DNA of 64,000 nucleotides from Candidatus Eisenbacteria bacterium (GTDB lineage Bacteria > Eisenbacteria > RBG-16-71-46). Positions within the stretch are counted from its first letter, which is position 1. Each line of letters opens with the position of its first letter. This document shows, in pieces, positions 8,156-56,409 of the stretch. The notes below the pieces were generated by a model. It saw only the letters and a program-made list of their open reading frames with translations. It had not been told where the DNA came from and ran no database searches. Both the position numbers and the translations under genes were made by a program. The stretch covers positions 186,001 through 250,000 of the forward strand of contig JADLBL010000015.1 of NCBI GenBank assembly GCA_020847735.1, written 5' to 3'.

Positions 8156-9009
8156 GGCGACTCCCGGCCGGCGCCCCGCCGAAGCGTCAGCGACACGGTC
8201 GCCGTCTCACCCAGCACCGGATGCCCCTCGATACGCGCGGCGAAGCGCAGCCGCCCGCGCGTTCCCGCGAGGCCCACCGAGGCGCGGGTTGGGGAGCTGC
8301 GCGCCTCCGCCCATACGTCGAGAGCGCCGGCCGCGAGCGAAACGCCGGCGGACTGCGACCCGTCATCTTCCGCCGAGGCGGCGTCGATCGCGATCCAGCC
8401 CGCGAGCGCGCCGCGCGCCAGGCTCGCGCCCAGCTCGAGCGGCCGGGCGAGCGGCGGGGCCTCGCCCCGGGTCCACAACTGCGGCGCGCTCGCCCACAGG
8501 CGCACACCGGTCGCGGGCGCGATCCACGCTCCACCGCCGGCCTCGAATCCCGCGCCGAGCGCCGCATCGCTGGTCAGCAGGCCGCCGCCCGCGCGATCCC
8601 TGCGCGACACGATCCGCAACGCGAAACCGAACTCCGGGGTCGCGGCGCCCGCGCAGGCCCCGGCGCACGTCCAGCCCAGCTCGCCGTCGCCGGTCTGTGA
8701 GAGTCCCGCCGCGAGGCGCAGCGTGCGAACGGGCACGAGCAGCGACAGCGAGCGCGTCTCCAGATCGGGCAGCGCGAACCAGCGTGTCGCCGCGGCCTCG
8801 AACGCCCACCGTTCATCGGGCGCGGGCAGCGCGCGTTCGAGCAGCGCGGCCGATCCGGACTGCACGCCGGCGGCGAGCGCCGGCGTGAAGTCCTGAGACC
8901 TCACGACCGGTGCGCCGGCGAGCGCACCGACCCACAGGAGAGCCGCCCACAACTCCCGGCGCGCCGGCGGGTGGCGCCTCCTCGCGGCGGGGCCGCACCG
9001 CCCGCTCAC
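8152..9009 (-). CDS. Exported protein of unknown function, probable outer-membrane beta protein
   Basis: The product is 285 residues. After a strongly basic N-terminus (about 1-18) comes a hydrophobic stretch ELWAALLWVGALAGAPVV and a likely cleavage near RSQDFTP. The rest is glycine- and alanine-rich with repeated short amphipathic strands (LETRSLSLLVPVRTLRLAAG, RGALAGWIAIDAASAE), consistent with a small barrel or beta sandwich. No known catalytic motif is seen. The GTG start at 9009 overlaps the preceding gene's stop by four bases. It shares the (E/D)FTP mature start and compositional style with the next gene. Function is unknown. Confidence 0.55.
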   Translation of the reverse strand: MSGRCGPAARRRHPPARRELWAALLWVGALAGAPVVRSQDFTPALAAGVQSGSAALLERALPAPDERWAFEAAATRWFALPDLETRSLSLLVPVRTLRLAAGLSQTGDGELGWTCAGACAGAATPEFGFALRIVSRRDRAGGGLLTSDAALGAGFEAGGGAWIAPATGVRLWASAPQLWTRGEAPPLARPLELGASLARGALAGWIAIDAASAEDDGSQSAGVSLAAGALDVWAEARSSPTRASVGLAGTRGRLRFAARIEGHPVLGETATVSLTLRRGAGRESP

Positions 9010-10625
9010 GGCCGGCTTCCCAGGACCCGCAGCGTTTCCTGGCGCGTGACCGCACGCGCGCCGTCGTGCGCCCGCAGCACCGCGACGTACAGGCCGGGTG
9101 GCAGTTCGCCGAGCGCGACCCGGCGCGTGTCCGCCGCTCCGGACGCGACTTCGTCGAGCAGCCGGGCCGCACGCCGGCCGGCGAGGTCGTACAGCTCGAT
9201 GGTCACGCGGCCGCGCGGCCAGGGCAGCGTCCAGGTCAGCGCGAGTTCGCGCTCGTGCGCTCCGAGCCGCCGGGGCGAGAGCGTCAACCCGCCGCCTTCC
9301 GCGCCCGGGTCCCGCGGGAACGCGAGCGGCGTGCCACGAGTCTCCCGTGCGCTCGTCCACACGCCGGCGCGCTTCTCGAGCGGTGTGCCCGCGGGGACGC
9401 CGGCGGCCGAGTACGGCACACGGTCGGCCGGCAATCCGTCGCGCTCCCGCAGCACGACCTCGTCGGCCGTGCCGTCCCCGCCGTCGCTGTTGTTGAAGCT
9501 CGGCCATGGGCCGACCGCGAGCACGCGGGTGCTGTCGAGTCCGGGAAACGCCGCCAGGAGCGCCGTGCGGTCCTGCGCGAGCACCGCGAGGCTTTCGGCC
9601 GCGAGCTCGACCGCGGCGATCAGCGGAACACCGGCGCTCGAGCGGTCGGCGAGCGTGCAGCCGGTCAGCACGAGCGGCACGCCCGAGCGATTGCGCACCT
9701 CGACCCACTCGCCTTCCCCGGCGGCCGGGTGGAACTGGATCTCGGTCAGCTCGAGCGGCCCCGGCCCCACGCGGAGTGCGAGCGTGTCCGCGTTGCTGGC
9801 GGGCGCTTCGTCGAGCGCGAGCACGACGTGGGCGAACAGCGCGCGCCTTCCCGCGTCGCCCGCGGCGGCCGGGCGGACGACTTCGAGGGTTTCTCCGGCG
9901 CCGATTCCCGGCAGCGACGCTGCGAGCGATTCGGCGAGCGCGTCCCCGGCCAGCACGAGCAGCGCTTCGCCGGCCGCGAGCGGTGCTCGCCCCGGGTTCG
10001 CGACCCGCAGCGAGACCAGGAGCGCTTCGCCCGGGGCCGGCTGCCCGGGTCGCACCAGCAGCGTGCCGCGCACGATCGCGAGATCGCGCTGGCGCTGGTT
10101 GGGGCGTCCCGGCGAGGGCTCCGCCGGCCGGAAGTCGAGCGCGTTGGATCCGAAGTCGGCGTCGTCGGGCACACGGGCGAGCGAGCTGCCCGAGGGCGCG
10201 TCCGTGGCGGGCGCACCGCAGGCGTACTCGGCGAACTCGTGCGTGCCCCAGCCGACCGTTTCGCGGCCGCCATCCGGCCATTCGAGGCGGATGGCGTCGG
10301 GACCGTTCTGCAGATCGAGCGTCGCGATCCGGTCCGGCGCGGGCGAGACCAGCGCGCCGCCGACCACGAAGCGCCCGTGCGCCGGCACGCTGTCGCCGGC
10401 CGCGCCGGTCCAGCGGAGGGTCCAGCGGCCGGCGGCCGAGCCGTCGCCCGACTCCAGTCGCAGTCCCGCCAGCGCGCAGGCCGAGCCCGACGGGTTGAAG
10501 AACTCCACGTACTCGCGGCCGCCGTCCTCGCCGGGAGCGTCGTAGTAAACCTCGGCGACGATCGCCCGTCCCGCCGGAGCGCAGACGGCCAGCGCCAGAG
10601 TCGCGGCCAGGTGCTGCAATACCAT
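9006..10625 (-). CDS. Secreted protein with two lamin-tail-like domains and a FlgD/T9SS-like C-terminal domain
   Basis: The product is 539 residues. A signal peptide (about 1-21) precedes a first lamin-tail-like domain (about 22-160; VAEVYYDAPGEDGGREYVEF), a middle region with repeated VRVANPG-type beta strands (about 190-310), a second lamin-tail-like domain (about 315-440; LELTEIQFHPAAGEGEWVEV) and a C-terminal beta domain (about 455-539; VTIELYDLAGRRAARLLDEV, LPPGLYVAVLRA). The C-terminal domain resembles those found on exported proteins of FCB bacteria. The ATG at 10625 immediately precedes the signal sequence; upstream in-frame codons lack support. It heads a chain of overlapping genes running to the aminotransferase. 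Confidence 0.75.
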   Translation of the reverse strand: MVLQHLAATLALAVCAPAGRAIVAEVYYDAPGEDGGREYVEFFNPSGSACALAGLRLESGDGSAAGRWTLRWTGAAGDSVPAHGRFVVGGALVSPAPDRIATLDLQNGPDAIRLEWPDGGRETVGWGTHEFAEYACGAPATDAPSGSSLARVPDDADFGSNALDFRPAEPSPGRPNQRQRDLAIVRGTLLVRPGQPAPGEALLVSLRVANPGRAPLAAGEALLVLAGDALAESLAASLPGIGAGETLEVVRPAAAGDAGRRALFAHVVLALDEAPASNADTLALRVGPGPLELTEIQFHPAAGEGEWVEVRNRSGVPLVLTGCTLADRSSAGVPLIAAVELAAESLAVLAQDRTALLAAFPGLDSTRVLAVGPWPSFNNSDGGDGTADEVVLRERDGLPADRVPYSAAGVPAGTPLEKRAGVWTSARETRGTPLAFPRDPGAEGGGLTLSPRRLGAHERELALTWTLPWPRGRVTIELYDLAGRRAARLLDEVASGAADTRRVALGELPPGLYVAVLRAHDGARAVTRQETLRVLGSRP

Positions 10626-10772
10626 GAGGGTTTCGCCGCGGGGGCGTCGTGACTCGGGGGCCTGGGTGCGGCGCGAACACGCGCATCGCGGGCAAGCCAC
10701 GTGCCGCGGCCGCGGCGCGGCGAGCCGTCCGACGCCGGCGCTCACGCACGTGGCGAAGAGCGGGCCTTCGGG

Positions 10773-12905
10773 CTAGGGCAGCCCGCGTCTCCTGCGCAGC
10801 GCCCATTCGGTCCCGAGCACCGCCACGAGCGCGGCGAAGAGCCACGGCGACTCCCACAGCCGCGTGCTCGCCGCGCGCCGGCGCGTGAGCGCGCGCGTCG
10901 AAAGCCCGCGCGCCCACGCGTCGGCGTGGCCGGCGTCGCCGGCCTTTCCGCCGCTCGCGCGCGCGATCGCGCCGAGGGTCGAGCTGTCCGGTTCGCTGCG
11001 CAGGGCTTCGAGACTCCAGCGGTCCACCGCGAAGGCCGTCGTCGCGCTTGCCCGCGTGCGGCCACCGCCCACGGCCTGCACGCTCACCTGCCAGCGGCCC
11101 GGCGGCAGCGCATCGAGCGACGCCGTGTAGCTGCCCGCTTCACCCGGCTCGAAGTCGAGAGACCGCGAGGCGCCGCGCCCGTCGCTCGCGGTCCCCGCGA
11201 CCTGCGCGCCCGCCACCGGACGGAACGCCTCGTCCTGCAGCGACGCGAACAGCCGTACACGTTCGCCGTTGGCCGACAGCCAGCGCTCGGGGCGCACCCG
11301 CAGCGGCTCGCCCTGCACGGGCTCCGACAACCAGCGCACGGTCTTCCGCCACAATCGCCGGCCCCGTTCGCCCGCCAGCTCGTCGTTGCCCGCCAGCGAC
11401 CAGCGCCAGAAGCCGGTGCCGTTGACGAGCAGCACCGGTCCACGGCCGGCGCGGCGCGCGAACACCAGCGGCGGGCCGCCGCCCTGCGCGCCGACGAGCA
11501 CGCGATCTCCGCCGCCCGGCGAGAACGGCATCACGCCGGAAAGCGGCGCGGCCGCGCGCCAGGCGGCGTCCCCGCGCGCGGGATCGTCGTCCCAGGCGAG
11601 CAGCTCCTCGGCGGCCGGGCTCGGCTGCGGCCGCACCTCGAGCGTCGAAGCGCCCGTCCGGGGAAACTGCAATTCGGCGGCGAGCGCCCCGCGCGAATAG
11701 CGGACGAGACCCGGGGCCGGTCCGCCCAGCAGCAGCAAACCTCCGCCGCCGCGCACGAAGGCCGCCAGCGCGCGGTCGAACCCGTCGCTCACCTCGGCCG
11801 CGGCGAGCGCATCGAGGATCACGACCGCGCGCCCCCGCAGGTCGGCGGCCGACGGCGGGCCGCCCGCGTGTTCGAGCGATCGCCAGCCTCCGCGCTCGCG
11901 CACGCGCGTCTCGAGCGCCAGCGACGAATCGCCGAGCAGCGCGCGACGCAGGAACGTGAGATCCCAGTTGAGCTGGCCCGTCACGATCAGCACGCCGAGC
12001 CGGCCCGGCGCCACCTGCACCGCGGCTTCGCGCGAGTCGTTGAGCGCGCTCGCGTCGCCCGGCAGCGAATCCACGCGCGCCGTCCACACCGCGAGCCCGG
12101 GCCGCACCGGCGTCACGCGCAGCGTGACCGCGGCCTCGGCGCCCGGCCCCGGCGCCGGAACGGTCGCCCGAGCCAGTTCGCGGCCGTCCTCCAGCACGCG
12201 CACCGGGATCGCCGTGCCGCGCGGTTCGCTCGACCGGACGCGCACGCGCACCGGCGCCGCCTCGCCAACGCGCGCGACCGGCGAGGTCTCGACCTCGGCG
12301 ATCGCGCGATCGGGTCCCGCCGGGCCGCCGATCGTCACCGTGTGCACCGGCACGCCCAGTTCGCGCGCGGCCGCGACCGGGTCGGCGCCCGCGTTGACGA
12401 CTCCGTCGCTCACGACGATCACGCCGTCGGGCCGCCGCTCGACCGGCTCGGCCGCGAGCGCCGTCAGCGCGTCACCCAGCGCCGTGGACTGGCGCGCCAC
12501 CGACCCCGTGTCGGCGGCCAGGGTCGCGGCGAAGGGGCGCGTCTGCACGCTCGCGCGCCCGCGCAGCGCCCCCGCCAGATCCTTCGCCACGCGCGCGGCC
12601 ACTTCGGAGCGCGGCGGTCCCCCGGGAGAGGAGCGCAGGTCCATGCTCGCCGAGACGTCGAGCAGCACCGTCACGCGCCGGCCGGCCGCGGGCAGCGCCC
12701 GATCGAGCACCGGCTGGGCGAGCAGCCAGGCAAGCGTCACGAGGGCCGCGCCGCGCAGGATCGCCAGCAGCCGCCGCATGCCCCGCGGCAGCGGCGGGGT
12801 CCCGAATGCGTACGCCCACACGGCCAGCGCCACCAGCACCAGCGACAGCAGGGCGAGCGCGATCCACGGCGCGTTGGGCGCGAAGTGCAGCGAGAGGTCG
12901 TTCAC
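10773..12905 (-). CDS. Membrane protein with von Willebrand factor A domain and GATase-like region
   Basis: The 710-residue product has two N-terminal transmembrane segments (about 14-34 and 47-66), a VWA domain (about 76-195) with a metal-ion-dependent adhesion motif DVSASMD, beta-sandwich regions (about 200-300), a class I glutamine-amidotransferase-like fold (about 305-540; GVLIVTGQLNW, GGGLLLLGG) lacking an obvious catalytic Cys, another beta region, and a C-terminal transmembrane segment (about 684-702). This layout is typical of large inner-membrane proteins found near MoxR/BatA-type systems, but no MoxR ATPase or DUF58 gene is present in the window. The start is GTG at 12905. Its partner is not identifiable. 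Confidence 0.75.
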   Translation of the reverse strand: MNDLSLHFAPNAPWIALALLSLVLVALAVWAYAFGTPPLPRGMRRLLAILRGAALVTLAWLLAQPVLDRALPAAGRRVTVLLDVSASMDLRSSPGGPPRSEVAARVAKDLAGALRGRASVQTRPFAATLAADTGSVARQSTALGDALTALAAEPVERRPDGVIVVSDGVVNAGADPVAAARELGVPVHTVTIGGPAGPDRAIAEVETSPVARVGEAAPVRVRVRSSEPRGTAIPVRVLEDGRELARATVPAPGPGAEAAVTLRVTPVRPGLAVWTARVDSLPGDASALNDSREAAVQVAPGRLGVLIVTGQLNWDLTFLRRALLGDSSLALETRVRERGGWRSLEHAGGPPSAADLRGRAVVILDALAAAEVSDGFDRALAAFVRGGGGLLLLGGPAPGLVRYSRGALAAELQFPRTGASTLEVRPQPSPAAEELLAWDDDPARGDAAWRAAAPLSGVMPFSPGGGDRVLVGAQGGGPPLVFARRAGRGPVLLVNGTGFWRWSLAGNDELAGERGRRLWRKTVRWLSEPVQGEPLRVRPERWLSANGERVRLFASLQDEAFRPVAGAQVAGTASDGRGASRSLDFEPGEAGSYTASLDALPPGRWQVSVQAVGGGRTRASATTAFAVDRWSLEALRSEPDSSTLGAIARASGGKAGDAGHADAWARGLSTRALTRRRAASTRLWESPWLFAALVAVLGTEWALRRRRGLP

Positions 12906-48685: not shown

Positions 48686-49402
48686 TCAGACGAGGCGGTT
48701 GCCGTTGACCTGCAGGCCGAACGTGGCCCCGAGGAACTTGGCCGCCTTCCGCGACGCGAGCATGCGCGTCATGAATATCTCGAAGTACTCCATGACGTGG
48801 GAAATATTCGAGTCGATCACGAGCTCCAGGGTGATGTGCTTGCGATCCTCGTCCACGTTCAGGAAGCTCTTCTCGACCGCGTAGTTGACACGGTCGTGAA
48901 TGTCGAAGCGGATCATGTCGGGATTGCGGACGCGCGTGCGGTGCACGTCGCTCTTGTCGGCGAGGATCACGGCCGCCGCCACCGGGTTGACCGGGTCGCC
49001 GTCGTTTTCGTGATGGTTGCCGATCGCGGCGATCACCTTGAGGACCTCGAGGTCGTCCATGCCGAAGTCGTTCAGGAACTGCATCGCCATGACCGCGCCC
49101 GTCTGGGCGTGGTGGTCACGGTTCACCGCGTTGCCGATGTCGTGAAGCACACCCGCGATGGCGGCCAGCTCGCACTCTCGCTCGGGATGCCCCATGCGCT
49201 TGAGCACGTTGTAGGCGATTCGGCTGACCAGCCCGACGTGCCGCTCGCCGTGCTCGGTGTAGCCGATCTGCTCGAGCGCCGCGTCGGCCATGCGGATGTA
49301 GTGGCGCACCCGCGGGTGGTCGCGCACGAACTCGAACGTCACCGGGCTCGGGGGCGTGAGTGGGTGGCCGGCGTCGGCGGTCCTGGCGGTCGGCATGCTC
49401 AT
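48686..49402 (-). CDS. HD-domain phosphohydrolase
   Basis: The 238-residue cytoplasmic protein has an HD domain with the metal-binding residues in ERHVGLVSRIAYNVLKRMG, AAIAGVLHDIGNAVNRDHHA (H and D) and IAAIGNHHENDGDPVNPVAA. The later VILADKSDVHRTRVRNPDMI and DIHDRVNYAVEKSFLNVDED are typical of a subgroup near YmdA/RNase Y-like HD enzymes. Possible substrates are nucleotides or RNA ends; no specificity can be stated. The ATG at 49402 is preceded by a TTGACG/TAGATT promoter (49472-49501). It is the first gene of a two-gene unit with the TPR protein. Confidence 0.85.
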   Translation of the reverse strand: MSMPTARTADAGHPLTPPSPVTFEFVRDHPRVRHYIRMADAALEQIGYTEHGERHVGLVSRIAYNVLKRMGHPERECELAAIAGVLHDIGNAVNRDHHAQTGAVMAMQFLNDFGMDDLEVLKVIAAIGNHHENDGDPVNPVAAAVILADKSDVHRTRVRNPDMIRFDIHDRVNYAVEKSFLNVDEDRKHITLELVIDSNISHVMEYFEIFMTRMLASRKAAKFLGATFGLQVNGNRLV

Positions 49403-51699: not shown

Positions 51700-52341
51700 T
51701 CACGCGCTTCCGGCGCCGGCGCCGCTCAGGACCACCGGCTCGCCCGTTTCGGCGGGCACGCCGAGCAGCTCGCCGAGCGTGAGGTCGAAGTACCAGGCGT
51801 GAAGATCCAGCCGCCGCGCTTCGACGGCGGCGCGGATCCACGGGAAGCTCAGCAGGTTGCGAAGCGACAGGCGCAGGGCGGCGACGTTGAGCGCCCGCTC
51901 GCGAGCCTCCACGGGGAGATGCGCTCCCTCGTGGAGCGTCCCGGCGCGCGCGGCGGTCGCCATGGACATCCAGCGCGGCAGGAACTCGCCCTCGGTGCCG
52001 TCGAGCAGTGCGCGGATGCCGCCGCACTTCTCGTGGCCCATCACCACGATGTGACGCACGCCCAGCACGCGCACGCCGAACTCGAGCGCGGCGCTCACGC
52101 CGTGCAGTCCGCCACCCTGCTCGTGGGGAGGTACGAGGTTGGCGATGTTGCGCACCACGAAGAAGTCGCCGGGGTGCGCGTCGAGCACGATCGCGGGGTC
52201 CACGCGCGAATCGCAGCACGCGACGATCATCGTCGAGGGCGCCTGGCCCTCGCACAGCGCCTTGTAGACGTGCTCGTCACCCGTGAAGTAGCGGCGGCGG
52301 AAGCGTCCGAACCCCTCGATGAACCGCGCGATCTCGGGCAT
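51700..52341 (-). CDS. Beta-class carbonic anhydrase
   Basis: The 213-residue zinc enzyme interconverts CO2 and bicarbonate. Zinc ligands and active-site residues are visible: C42, D44 and R46 in ACCDSRVDPAIVL, H103 and C106 in VVMGHEKCGGIRALLDG. The region RNIANLVPPHEQGGGLHGVS AALEFG follows the family pattern. No signal peptide is seen, so it is cytoplasmic. The ATG at 52341 is at the start of the conserved N-terminal helix (MPEIARFIEGFGRFRRRYFT). The gene is followed by priA after four bases, a pairing with no obvious functional link. Confidence 0.95.
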   Translation of the reverse strand: MPEIARFIEGFGRFRRRYFTGDEHVYKALCEGQAPSTMIVACCDSRVDPAIVLDAHPGDFFVVRNIANLVPPHEQGGGLHGVSAALEFGVRVLGVRHIVVMGHEKCGGIRALLDGTEGEFLPRWMSMATAARAGTLHEGAHLPVEARERALNVAALRLSLRNLLSFPWIRAAVEARRLDLHAWYFDLTLGELLGVPAETGEPVVLSGAGAGSA

Positions 52342-52488
52342 GGGCGTCCGGCGGGGCCACTGCCGGCGCCGCCCCATGCGGCGCCCGCGCCTGCCGGGCC
52401 GGGTCCGCACTGTGCGACGCGCGCCGCCGCGAGCGCAAGCCGCCGCGCGGCGCGCCTCCCCGCGGTCGCGCGGGACCGCGGAAACGCG

Positions 52489-52518
52489 GACGGCCCGGGG
52501 CGCGAACCCCGGGCCGTC
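52489..52518 (-). terminator. Hairpin terminator after the response regulator
   Basis: A perfect 12-bp stem (52489-52500 with 52507-52518) with a 6-base loop lies 22 bases past the receiver-gene stop. On the minus strand it is followed by TCCGCGTTTCC, a weak T-run. Confidence 0.55.
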
Positions 52519-52540: not shown

Positions 52541-52939
52541 TCACGCCTGCATGCGCTGCTGCGAGCTGCCCTGACCGAGGATCGCGTTGATGCGCTCGAC
52601 CAGCTTGCGCGGGCTGAACGGCTTGGTGATGTAGTCGTCGGCGCCGACCTCGAAGCCGACCTTCTGGTCCACGTTGCGGCCCTTGGCGGACAGCAGGATC
52701 ACGGGAATGGCCTTGGTCGCGTCGTCGGCCTTGAGGCGCTTGCAGGTCTCGTAGCCGTCGAGCTTCGGCATCATGATGTCGAGCACGATGAGGTCGGGCT
52801 TCTCCGCGCGCGCCTTCTCGAGCGCCTGCTCGCCGTCGAGCGCGGTGACGACCGCGTAGCCTTCCATGCCGAGGCTGAAGTCCAGGATGTGAACGATGTA
52901 GATCTCGTCGTCCACGACCAGGATCTTGCCCTTCGCCAT
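52541..52939 (-). CDS. Single-domain response regulator (CheY-like receiver)
   Basis: The 132-residue protein is one receiver domain: KILVVDDEIYIVHILDFSLG (acidic pair), DLIVLDIMMPKLDGYETC (phospho-acceptor Asp at about 50), VILLSAKG (Thr/Ser) and GADDYITKPFSPRKLVERI (Lys). No output domain follows, so signalling is by protein contact or by phosphotransfer. The likely start is ATG 52939, about ten bases after GGAGG; a GTG three codons upstream sits on top of the ribosome site. The histidine kinase-HD-GYP gene is immediately upstream on the same strand (stop at 53111), so they may be partners. A hairpin follows the gene. Confidence 0.92.
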   Translation of the reverse strand: MAKGKILVVDDEIYIVHILDFSLGMEGYAVVTALDGEQALEKARAEKPDLIVLDIMMPKLDGYETCKRLKADDATKAIPVILLSAKGRNVDQKVGFEVGADDYITKPFSPRKLVERINAILGQGSSQQRMQA

Positions 52940-53110
52940 TCCCTTCACCTCCTCGTCCGGCCCTTCGTCGGGACCGGTCTCCGAGTTCCGCCTCGTGACT
53001 GCTCCACCCGGTCTGCTGCATCGCGCCCCGGCCGCGGATTCGGGCGGAACGATTTTCGCCTCCGGTATCGGCGGGGATGTCCCCCCGCTTGAGCGGGATC
53101 GCGGACCGTG

Positions 53111-55438
53111 TCAGGCCGCTTCGCGCAGCCTTCCCTCGCGCTCCAGCACCCGGACCAGGGCCTCCACCACCTCGGCGTCGAACTGGCTGCCGGCGGCCCT
53201 GCGCAGCTCGACCGCCGCCTGCGCCGGGTCGCGGGCGGGCCGGAACGGCCGTTCGAACGTCATGCTCTGCCAGGCGTCCACGACGGCCAGGATGCGGGCC
53301 CCGAGCGGGATCGCCTCGCCGGCGAGGCCGCGCGGGTAGCCGGTGCCGTCCCAGTGTTCGTGGTGGCTCAGGATCAGATCCCGGACCACGCCGAGGTACT
53401 CGAGCGGGCGCAGGATCGCGATGCTCACGGCCGGGTGGGTCGAGACCGCGGTGCGCTGCGCCGCGCTCAGCTCGCCGCTGTCGCCGGTCTCGCCGGTGAC
53501 GCGCACCATGCCGACGTCGTGGATGCTGGCCACGTAGCCGATCACGTCCACGTCCGCGGCGGGCACACCCAGCTCGCGGGCGACGGAGCGCACCAGCTTC
53601 ACTTCCCGCCGGCCGCCGAGCGAGAGCTCGCGCTTGAGCCGCGTCATGCAGCGCACCGCCTCGAGCGCGTCCTCGATCACGCGATGGCTGTCGGGGTAGG
53701 CGCAGGCGCGCTCGATGGCGCTGCCGACGCGCTCGGCCAGCATCACGAGCAGGGTGAGATCGTCCTCGTCGAACGGCTCGCCGCTCGTCTTGTTGTTCGC
53801 GTTGATGACGCCGATGATCTCGCCCTCGACGCGCAGCGGCACGCACAGCAGCGACTTGGTCTGGTACTGCGGATGATTGAGCCGCCGGAAGCGGCGGTCG
53901 GTCTCGATGTTCTCGACCAGCACCGGGCGCCCCCAGGCCGCGACCGCGCCCGCGACCCCGGAGCGCAGGGTGGTCCGCCGTCCGTTCACGCCCTGCGGCG
54001 CGAGGCCGACGGCGGCGGCGACGAACAGGTCGCCGCGATCGGCGTCCACGAGCACGAGCGAGACGATGCCGGTCTCGAGCGTCACCGCGACCATCTCGAC
54101 GGTCGCCTGGAAGAGCTCGGCGAGGTCCTGGCGCCCGACCGTCTGGCGCGCGATGCGCCGCGCGCGCGCCGAAGCGACCTGGCGCACGGGCATCGCGAGG
54201 CTGAAGCGCGTTCCGCCTCCGGGCGGCAGCTCGGCCCACATGCGGCCGCCATGGAGCTGCGCGATGCTGCGGGCGATCGCGAGTCCGACCCGCGTGCCCT
54301 CGTGCGAGGGCTGGCCGTTCGGCAGCTGCCGGCGCGCACGGTAGAAGCCCTCGAACACCGCCGAGAGGTCCTCGGTGGGCGGCGGCGGCCCGTCGTCGGT
54401 CACCGAAAAGCTCCACTCGTCGCCGTGGACCGCGAAGCGCACGCGCACGGTCGCGCCCTCGGGCGAGAACTCGACCGCGTTCTCGATCAGGTTGGCGAGG
54501 GCCCTGCGGGTGAAGTCGGGGTCCAGCTCGACGCGGGCGTCCCCGGATTGTTCGTGGGCGAGCGTCACCCTGCGTCGCGCGGCCGTGTCGGCGAGGGCGG
54601 CGCAGACCTCGCGACCGAACTCGGTCAGCGACTGCGTGGTCAGCCGCAGCGTGCACTCGCCGCTCTCGAGCCGTGAGAGGTCGTGAACGTCGGTGACGAG
54701 CGCGCCGAGCCGGTTGCATTCGTCGTCAATCACGTTCAGGAAGCGTCCGCGCGGAGCGTTCGGATTGTCGAGGTTGCTGCCCAGCGTCTCGGCGTAGGCC
54801 TTGATCGAGGAGAGCGGCGAGCGCAGCTCGTGGGCGACGATCGCCATGAGGGCCGACGCGGCCTCCTGCGCGGTCGCCAGCCGGCGTTCGGCGGCGACGA
54901 CGCGCGTGCGCTCCTCGTCCAGCGCCCGCACGAGGTCGGCGCGCTCGAACGCCAGCGCGAGCGCGTCGGCAAGCGCCTGCAGGAAGCGCCGCTCGGGCCC
55001 CTGCAGCGAACGGGGACCGGCGAAGGCGACGAGCAGGAATCCCCACACGGCGTTGCCCGCCACCAGCGGAAGCGTGCACAGCGCGGCCGGCGGCTGCTGC
55101 CAGAGCAGCGTCTCGCGCGGCGCGTTCGCGTCGGCGGAGCCGTCGTCGTACAGGGGGCGGTCGTTGCGCATGACCCACTCGACCGGTCCGCCGTCCTCGG
55201 CGAGGTAGGGCGTCTCGACGCCCGACTCCTCGAAGCGGAACAGCGCCCCGCTGCGGCGGTCCATGCGCAGCAACCGCGCGTCCGCGGCGCCCAGCGCCCG
55301 CGTGGCGTTGGCGTTGGCGATGCCCCACGAGACGCCGAGGTCGCAGGTCGTGCGCAGGGCGAGCACCGCCTCGGCCAGCAGCGCGACGGCCTCTCCGGGC
55401 AGTTCCAGCAGCCGTGTTCCGGGGTCGGTGGGGTTCAA
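53111..55438 (-). CDS. Hybrid GAF-histidine kinase-GAF-HD-GYP protein
   Basis: The 775-residue soluble protein has, in order, a GAF domain (about 20-165), a HisKA domain with H203 in IVAHELRSPLSSIKAYAETL, an ATPase domain with N320 in LANLIENAVEFSPEG and a DDGPPPP segment where the G1 box is expected, a second GAF domain (about 430-575), and an HD-GYP-like domain (about 600-770). The HD pair (H640, D641 in YVASIHDVGMV), H668, HH692-693 and HHEHWDGTGYPRGLAGEAIP are kept. The usual HDIGK lysine is Met. No transmembrane segment is seen. Start is a TTG at 55438 with GGAG eight bases upstream, 11 bases after the GGDEF gene. A kinase fused to a c-di-GMP phosphodiesterase-type domain is unusual. Confidence 0.85.
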   Translation of the reverse strand: MNPTDPGTRLLELPGEAVALLAEAVLALRTTCDLGVSWGIANANATRALGAADARLLRMDRRSGALFRFEESGVETPYLAEDGGPVEWVMRNDRPLYDDGSADANAPRETLLWQQPPAALCTLPLVAGNAVWGFLLVAFAGPRSLQGPERRFLQALADALALAFERADLVRALDEERTRVVAAERRLATAQEAASALMAIVAHELRSPLSSIKAYAETLGSNLDNPNAPRGRFLNVIDDECNRLGALVTDVHDLSRLESGECTLRLTTQSLTEFGREVCAALADTAARRRVTLAHEQSGDARVELDPDFTRRALANLIENAVEFSPEGATVRVRFAVHGDEWSFSVTDDGPPPPTEDLSAVFEGFYRARRQLPNGQPSHEGTRVGLAIARSIAQLHGGRMWAELPPGGGTRFSLAMPVRQVASARARRIARQTVGRQDLAELFQATVEMVAVTLETGIVSLVLVDADRGDLFVAAAVGLAPQGVNGRRTTLRSGVAGAVAAWGRPVLVENIETDRRFRRLNHPQYQTKSLLCVPLRVEGEIIGVINANNKTSGEPFDEDDLTLLVMLAERVGSAIERACAYPDSHRVIEDALEAVRCMTRLKRELSLGGRREVKLVRSVARELGVPAADVDVIGYVASIHDVGMVRVTGETGDSGELSAAQRTAVSTHPAVSIAILRPLEYLGVVRDLILSHHEHWDGTGYPRGLAGEAIPLGARILAVVDAWQSMTFERPFRPARDPAQAAVELRRAAGSQFDAEVVEALVRVLEREGRLREAA

Positions 55439-55449
55439 GTCGCTGCTCC

Positions 55450-56409
55450 TCAGGCGACGCTGCGGTCCGAGTCGGATTCGTGGCGGCGCCGGTCGCCGAC
55501 CAGCACGCTGCCGCTGATGCCCTTGCCGTGCGCCTTCAGTTCCTGGGCGATGTCGATCAGCTCGGCGAGGTGCGTGACCGGTACGAGGGCCGTGCTGACG
55601 AGCGCGATGGTCAGGCTCATGAGCGGAAAGCGCTCGATCGCGTGGCGCCGGCTGAGCACCTCGACGTGTCCGCGCTCGCGGTCCTCCTGGTCGTAGAGCT
55701 CGCGCGACGACTGATTGAACCGATTGAGGATCAGTTCTCCGAGACCCTCGGCGCGATCCGGATGGGTCAGCACGACGAAGTCGTCGCCGCCGATGTGGCC
55801 GACGAAGCTGTCGGCGCTGCCGGAGCGCTGCGCGGACTCGGTCAGGATGCGCGACAGCATCTGGATGGCCTGGTCGCCTCGCGCGTAGCCGTAGTAGTCG
55901 TTGAAGGCCTTGAAGTGGTCGATGTCCACCTGCAGCAGCGCGAACGGCTCGCTGCCGGCGAGCCGGCGGCGGATCTCGTCATTGATGGACAGGTTGCCCG
56001 GCAGCCCGGTGAGCGGGCTGGCCGAGCGCTGCTGCTTGCTCCACTCGAGCACGTTGTGGATGCGCAGCATGAGTTCGCCGCGGTTCCACGGCTTGGTGAC
56101 GTAGTCGTTCGCGCCGCCTTCGAGGCCGTGGACCTTCGCGTTCATGTCGGTCCGGGCGGTGAGCATGACGACCGGGATGTGGCGGGTGCTGAACTGGGCG
56201 CGCAGCTGCCGGCAGACCGCGTAGCCGTCGAGGAACGGCATCATGACGTCGAGGAGCATCAAGTCGGGCATCTCGGCGGTGGCCCGCTCGAGCGCCTGGC
56301 GGCCGTCGTGGGCTTCGCTGACCTCGTAGTCCTCGAGTTCCAGCTGCATGCGGAGCACATCCCGCAGCGCCGGTTCGTCTTCCGCGATGAGAATTCGAGC
56401 CTTCGGCAC
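55450..56409 (-). CDS. Response regulator with GGDEF-type output domain
   Basis: The 319-residue protein has a receiver domain (about 5-120; acidic pair in ILIAEDEPAL, phospho-Asp D54 in MLLDVMMPFLDGY, K106 in GANDYVTKPWNRGE) and a GGDEF-like domain (about 130-310; SPLTGLPGNLSINDEI, LLQVDIDHFKAFNDYYG). The signature reads GHIGGDDFVVL (residues 207-211 GGDDF), with Asp in place of the usual fourth-position Glu. Diguanylate cyclase activity is therefore uncertain. The GTG start at 56409 has GGAG seven bases upstream. It precedes the kinase-HD-GYP gene by 11 bases, joining potential c-di-GMP synthesis and breakdown in one operon. Confidence 0.88.
   Translation of the reverse strand: MPKARILIAEDEPALRDVLRMQLELEDYEVSEAHDGRQALERATAEMPDLMLLDVMMPFLDGYAVCRQLRAQFSTRHIPVVMLTARTDMNAKVHGLEGGANDYVTKPWNRGELMLRIHNVLEWSKQQRSASPLTGLPGNLSINDEIRRRLAGSEPFALLQVDIDHFKAFNDYYGYARGDQAIQMLSRILTESAQRSGSADSFVGHIGGDDFVVLTHPDRAEGLGELILNRFNQSSRELYDQEDRERGHVEVLSRRHAIERFPLMSLTIALVSTALVPVTHLAELIDIAQELKAHGKGISGSVLVGDRRRHESDSDRSVA

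Follow-up and report, generated by a model that had tools for sequence, protein, structure and literature searches.

We describe here a three-gene locus, and above all the fusion protein at its centre, in a 64,000-nucleotide stretch of contig JADLBL010000015.1 (hereafter the window; G+C ~72%), which comes from a 3.66 Mb genome; among named organisms its closest relatives are Candidatus Eisenbacteria, with 75% identity across the full fusion. In the direction of transcription, on the minus strand, the locus encodes a response regulator that joins a receiver to a GGDEF domain (REC-GGDEF), the fusion, with the domains GAF-HisKA-HATPase-GAF-HD_5, and a stand-alone receiver (REC) (Table 1). The start of REC-GGDEF was chosen from homologue alignments and an upstream GGGAG; the fusion begins at a TTG preceded by GGAG, 11 nt past the REC-GGDEF stop, and the receiver gene, which has its own GGAGG, starts ~170 nt beyond the fusion stop. 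Hidden Markov model searches with Pfam detected HisKA (E 1e-14, 54.6 bits, residues 195-260), HATPase_c (E 1.5e-24, 87 bits, residues 306-419), two stretches of GAF (the best at 437-576) and HD_5/HD-GYP (E 3.4e-29, 102 bits, residues 610-757), all above cut-off. A sequence-only reading of the window had placed the three genes at these positions and on this strand, and its domain order of kinase, GAF and HD-GYP-like was borne out, with a second, N-terminal GAF added by Pfam. Its assignments of H203, N320 and a methionine in the HDIGK-type motif (HDVGM, M644) were exact.

Table 1. Features of the locus in window coordinates
Feature	Coordinates	Strand	Basis
REC-GGDEF response regulator, 319 aa, GTG start 56409	55450..56409	-	Pfam Response_reg and GGDEF above cut-off
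Fusion, 775 aa: GAF(15-165)-HisKA(195-260)-HATPase_c(306-419)-GAF(437-576)-HD-GYP-like(610-757); N-terminal GAF limits approximate, taken from the structure model	53111..55438	-	Pfam, full-length homologues
HisKA/DHp domain; H203 at 54832-54830; docking face IKAYAET retained	54659..54856	-	Pfam, motif inspection
HATPase_c; N320 retained; G1 second Gly is Pro352 (54385-54383), G2 second Gly is Arg383 (54292-54290)	54182..54523	-	
Second GAF; within the genus, the most conserved domain of the fusion	53711..54130	-	
HD-GYP-like domain: H640, D641, M644 for Lys (53509-53507), H668, H692, H693, HHEHWDGTGYP, D721, Q724	53168..53611	-	
Stand-alone receiver, 132 aa from ATG 52939; 135 aa from GTG 52948	52541..52939	-	Pfam Response_reg
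Perfect 12-bp inverted repeat GACGGCCCGGGG-6 nt-CCCCGGGCCGTC, just past the receiver gene, no T-run	52489..52518	not assigned	

Full or near-full homologues of the fusion were found in 32 of the 47 Eisenbacteria genomes sampled, and a chance open reading frame was rejected on this ground. The gene order tsaD, REC-GGDEF, fusion 1, fusion 2, REC, priA, followed by genes for an HD protein and a TPR protein, is conserved: family f5, like much of f1, has two tandem fusion genes, while only the second kind (paralogue 2) is present in f4, f8 and two members of f1 (G005 and G014). Because the families without a fusion keep REC-GGDEF and REC adjoining at the same locus, the receiver/cyclase pair can be read from these sequences as the phylum-wide ancestral core between tsaD and priA, and the fusion as its variable insert. 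The sole exception to this adjacency is the fusion-less locus L173 (G020), where a spacer of ~1.2 kb lies between REC-GGDEF and the receiver at 8328-9545. In the fusion tree the two paralogues are ancient, with full support, and predate the split of f1 and f5. A tree of TsaD, PriA and REC-GGDEF, built by a quick method and supported by the Shimodaira-Hasegawa-like approximate likelihood ratio test (SH-aLRT) without bootstrap, placed the window genome, four congeners, G008 and the pair G018/G019 in one clade (SH-aLRT 100), so that the genus of the window and two others form a single clade of eight genomes. The fusion tree, too, recovers this clade as monophyletic, with a long stem branch, and genome searches found only paralogue 1 in its members; in G008, where the contig ends inside paralogue 1, the absence of paralogue 2 rests on the genome search. 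The operon is intact in all complete loci of the clade.

Outside the phylum the fusion appears to be rare. Among the best 80 relatives in a collection of 84,980 species, a kinase core was joined to HD-GYP only in the seven Eisenbacteria loci; most of the remainder were GAF-HD or other HD-GYP proteins, usually carrying HDIGK. An alignment search for kinase-GAF-HD across four other phyla (352 genomes) returned no such full-length fusion and only GAF-HD matches at E <= 1e-85, although in the largest of these sets four candidates per genome were scored, and rare fusions could escape. A literature phrase search for kinase-HD-GYP fusions likewise gave no result, which is weak evidence. The earlier remark that the architecture is unusual holds against the other phyla sampled but not within Eisenbacteria, where it is common; judged by sequence, its parts are known and their combination is a variant.

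The kinase half of the fusion has changed in the eight-genome clade. The second glycine of the ATP-lid motif G1 is replaced by proline (DxGxG to DxGPP) and that of G2 by arginine (GxGLGL to GxRxGL) in 8/8 members; both glycines are present in 42/42 fusion copies outside the clade, where no fusion-bearing genome lacks a copy in which the eight kinase signature residues are all present. The sister copy of G009, an intact paralogue 1, belongs to these lineages with complete kinase motifs. In G018 and G019 the phosphoacceptor histidine has, beyond the ATP-lid changes, become threonine. The window fusion has HisKA and HATPase_c with H203 and N320 in place and lacks the intact G1 and G2 glycines. 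The best solved match of its dimerization and histidine phosphotransfer (DHp) and catalytic, ATP-binding (CA) core is HK853, a sensor kinase of Thermotoga maritima (2c2a/3dge), whose GxG motifs are intact (DNGIGIP, GTGLGL) where the window fusion has DDGPPPP and GTRVGL. The sequence-only reading had overlooked these altered motifs, and with them the HD-GYP active-site losses besides the lysine. The HK853 docking residues A271, Y272 and T275, on the other hand, have identical counterparts in the fusion, and the receiver-docking face of the DHp domain is retained as IKAYxE[TS].

It could be argued that a copy with such changes is simply in slow decay, being left under relaxed selection and without important function once paralogue 2 was lost. 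The long stem branch of the clade and the dN/dS (nonsynonymous to synonymous substitution) ratios of the CA domain, which at 0.36-0.43 in g1 pairs lie above those of other domains in 3/4 of these pairs, would fit such a history. However, dN/dS is <0.45 in all domains of the clade pairs, no clade copy has a frame break (that of G008 runs off the contig end) and the operon has been kept. Moreover, because the DHp domains of the G018 and G019 fusions differ by a dN of 0.000 at a dS of 0.21, with few differences in the other domains, the comparison indicates that the His-less fusion is under strong purifying selection and is no decaying pseudogene. The slow-decay reading is thus already disfavoured, and we regard it as very unlikely. 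Judged by identity, constraint in the window's genus has shifted away from the DHp/CA core and towards the GAF and HD-GYP domains relative to the sister lineages: in the latter, DHp identity is 69% against 51% for the N-terminal GAF, while in the genus DHp, at 74%, falls under the N-terminal GAF (78%) and HD-GYP (79%).

A dedicated phosphatase is the nearest rival to the reading that we favour below, namely that of a kinase-disabled, receiver-docking regulator. Here the kinase would be lost and the DHp phosphatase kept, the fusion only stripping phosphate from the receiver(s) under modulation by the GAF and HD-GYP domains. The glutamate next to the phosphoacceptor histidine is required for phosphatase action in HisKA proteins, and its counterpart, E204, is kept in 8/8 clade members together with the docking face; yet the residue at the T/N position is serine in 8/8, a point that can be read on either side, and the CA-domain nucleotide binding site, whose occupancy often supports phosphatase activity, appears altered. 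We consider this role rather unlikely.

The C-terminal half of the fusion finds its closest solved relative in PmGH, a phosphodiesterase of Persephonella marina (4mcw) with the same order of GAF then HD-GYP, which in the fusion sits behind the kinase core. The two share the HD, H250, H276, H277, D305 and GYP residues: in the alignment the core metal ligands of PmGH, H221, D222, H250, H276, H277 and D305, are matched by H640, D641, H668, H692, H693 and D721, and the HHExxDGxGYP motif is present as HHEHWDGTGYP, with its GYP loop intact. In contrast, D183, E185, H189, K225 and D308 are replaced by R603, L605, G609, M644 and Q724. Alanine mutants of PmGH at D183, H189, K225 and D308 had their activity abolished or nearly so, while changes in the GYP loop had little effect (PMC4159591). 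The sequences indicate that these losses of catalytic residues extend phylum-wide. The methionine of HDxGM, rightly noted in the sequence-only reading, is shared by almost all copies of either paralogue, which makes it ancestral to the whole family and no peculiarity of the window protein, and its explanation as a quirk or a sequencing error confined to this genome was rejected; elsewhere HDxGM occurs sporadically (L092, L101, L124). A core that would be capable of holding two metals, together with arginines on the substrate side, fits, by our inference, a nucleotide-binding domain. EAL domains are absent from the window genome, which encodes seven GGDEF domains and a single PilZ protein. Since it also encodes other HD-GYP-like proteins with HDxGK, breakdown of cyclic di-GMP (c-di-GMP) need not rely on the fusion. 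In four loci with two fusion copies, L145 (G010), L146 (G011), L147 (G012) and L142 (G007), one copy has a damaged HD-GYP core and the other an intact one, a sequence pattern that looks as if one working core must remain.

Taken together, these residues bear on the model of the sequence-only reading, in which phosphorelay and c-di-GMP turnover are combined in one unit, an active kinase phosphorylating REC-GGDEF and REC while the HD-GYP domain degrades c-di-GMP and a single protein thereby switches synthesis and breakdown. In this form the model is supported only in part, the ATP-lid glycines being replaced throughout the clade, the phosphoacceptor histidine gone in two members and the counterparts of D183, K225, H189 and D308 absent. 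In its favour are the Pfam scores of every domain, the presence of H203 and N320, the intact metal core and HHExxDGxGYP motif, and the complete kinase motifs of most sister lineages. We judge a working kinase and phosphodiesterase to be distinctly improbable.

The receiver of REC-GGDEF is intact, with a DE pair, the phosphoacceptor aspartate in LLDVMMP, the threonine in VMLTAR and the lysine in VTKP. Its active-site motif is GGDDF in all genomes shown, against the consensus [G/A/S]G[D/E]E[F/Y], a motif shared with GSU1937 of Geobacter sulfurreducens, which is catalytically active (PMC8835794). GSU1937 is, however, a Hypr enzyme, that is, a synthase of cyclic GMP-AMP (cGAMP); it has a transmembrane domain at its N terminus and carries the serine at the position equivalent to PleD D344 that is diagnostic of this class (PMC8835794). 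The window cyclase has aspartate there (RGD), the equivalence being assigned by motif alignment; a Hypr identity is disfavoured on this motif-based evidence, and the aspartate points to c-di-GMP as the probable product. The stand-alone receiver has its phosphoacceptor aspartate (position 57 in the 135-aa form), DDE, serine and lysine all present, and its identity is 78-94% in nearly all fusion-bearing genomes, compared with 34-75% for the fusion. Receivers at two other loci are altered. In L140 (G005), whose only fusion is a paralogue 2 with several HD-GYP core residues lost, the open reading frame at 11070-11468 (+) has glutamate for the phosphoacceptor aspartate (IVLEITMPKLDG), the sole case among 43. 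The receiver of L178 (G038), at 10215-10658 (+), is divergent (43% identity) and changed around the acceptor site and at the Ser/Thr position.

The pair of REC and REC-GGDEF can be likened to divK and pleD, which adjoin in Caulobacter. The fusion, in turn, resembles DivL, the pseudokinase of Caulobacter crescentus, in having a HisKA/HATPase fold that would lack normal kinase function and, as partners, a stand-alone receiver and a REC-GGDEF cyclase; the solved structure of DivL (4q20) is a profile match of the fusion. DivL differs in having PAS sensors, tyrosine for the histidine and no HD-GYP domain, against H203, GAF and HD-GYP in the window fusion. It nonetheless offers a precedent for a pseudokinase acting with a receiver, one that is reported to leave the phosphate half-life of DivK~P unchanged or lengthened (PMC4211667). 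We propose, with confidence that is evenly balanced, that the fusion in the window's clade is a kinase-disabled, receiver-docking regulator that probably binds c-di-GMP and acts on a divK-pleD-like pair of receiver and diguanylate cyclase. An ancestral pair of this kind would have gained the sensor fusion between its two genes. The DHp domain may still dock the receiver or receivers while the CA domain no longer deals normally with ATP, the two GAF domains may sense a cytosolic signal, and the HD-GYP-like domain would most likely bind c-di-GMP or a relative without efficient hydrolysis. The fusion would then act, in the manner of DivL, as a receptor of phosphorylated receiver(s), coupling receiver state to the c-di-GMP of the adjacent cyclase, and the phosphate would have to derive from another kinase.

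Several points weigh against this proposal. H203, N320 and the G1 aspartate are still present in the window protein, and some ATP binding or kinase activity is possible; loss of the phosphoacceptor histidine, as in DivL, is confined to G018 and G019. The intact core ligands H, D, H, HH and D likewise make phosphodiesterase activity possible, and its loss is likely but not certain, because RpfG, an HD-GYP phosphodiesterase, is also without counterparts of E185 and H189 (PMC4159591). Receiver docking and c-di-GMP binding, like the direction of the signal, are steps that we infer. The structure model, built from eight sequences (mean predicted local distance difference test score, pLDDT, 69), is of low confidence in its HD-GYP part, with pLDDT <50 over residues 641-705, and was unused for active-site arguments; the 50 best Foldseek matches listed for it were kinase proteins or kinase parts. 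A bolder version, which we hold only tentatively and think somewhat doubtful, would make the fusion a double pseudoenzyme, dead as kinase and as phosphodiesterase, reading receiver phosphorylation through DHp and c-di-GMP through a non-catalytic HD-GYP domain of the HDxGM type. On this view, two ancient tandem kinases were reduced to one, and the remaining copy changed from writer to reader.

At the downstream end of the locus, the inverted repeat in Table 1 probably marks the end of the transcription unit; a terminator scan, which requires a T-run, did not report it, and promoter and terminator scans of this G+C-rich DNA were uninformative. Between the receiver gene and priA lies a carbonic anhydrase gene (Pfam Pro_CA; 51700-52410, -), of which no homologue was seen there in related loci. 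The small HD-domain protein beside priA (48686-49402, -) shows ~60-82% identity in those members of the class where it was detected, exceeding the conservation of PriA.

What the phylum offers at this single locus is a natural series, from two intact tandem copies, through a single intact copy, to a single copy with altered kinase motifs and finally to one with no phosphoacceptor histidine. The series makes a long-standing question testable, namely the conversion of a kinase to a pseudokinase while the protein, its partner genes and the operon stay conserved, and with the HDxGM family there is a defined group of proteins in which to examine whether HD-GYP domains can be c-di-GMP receptors.

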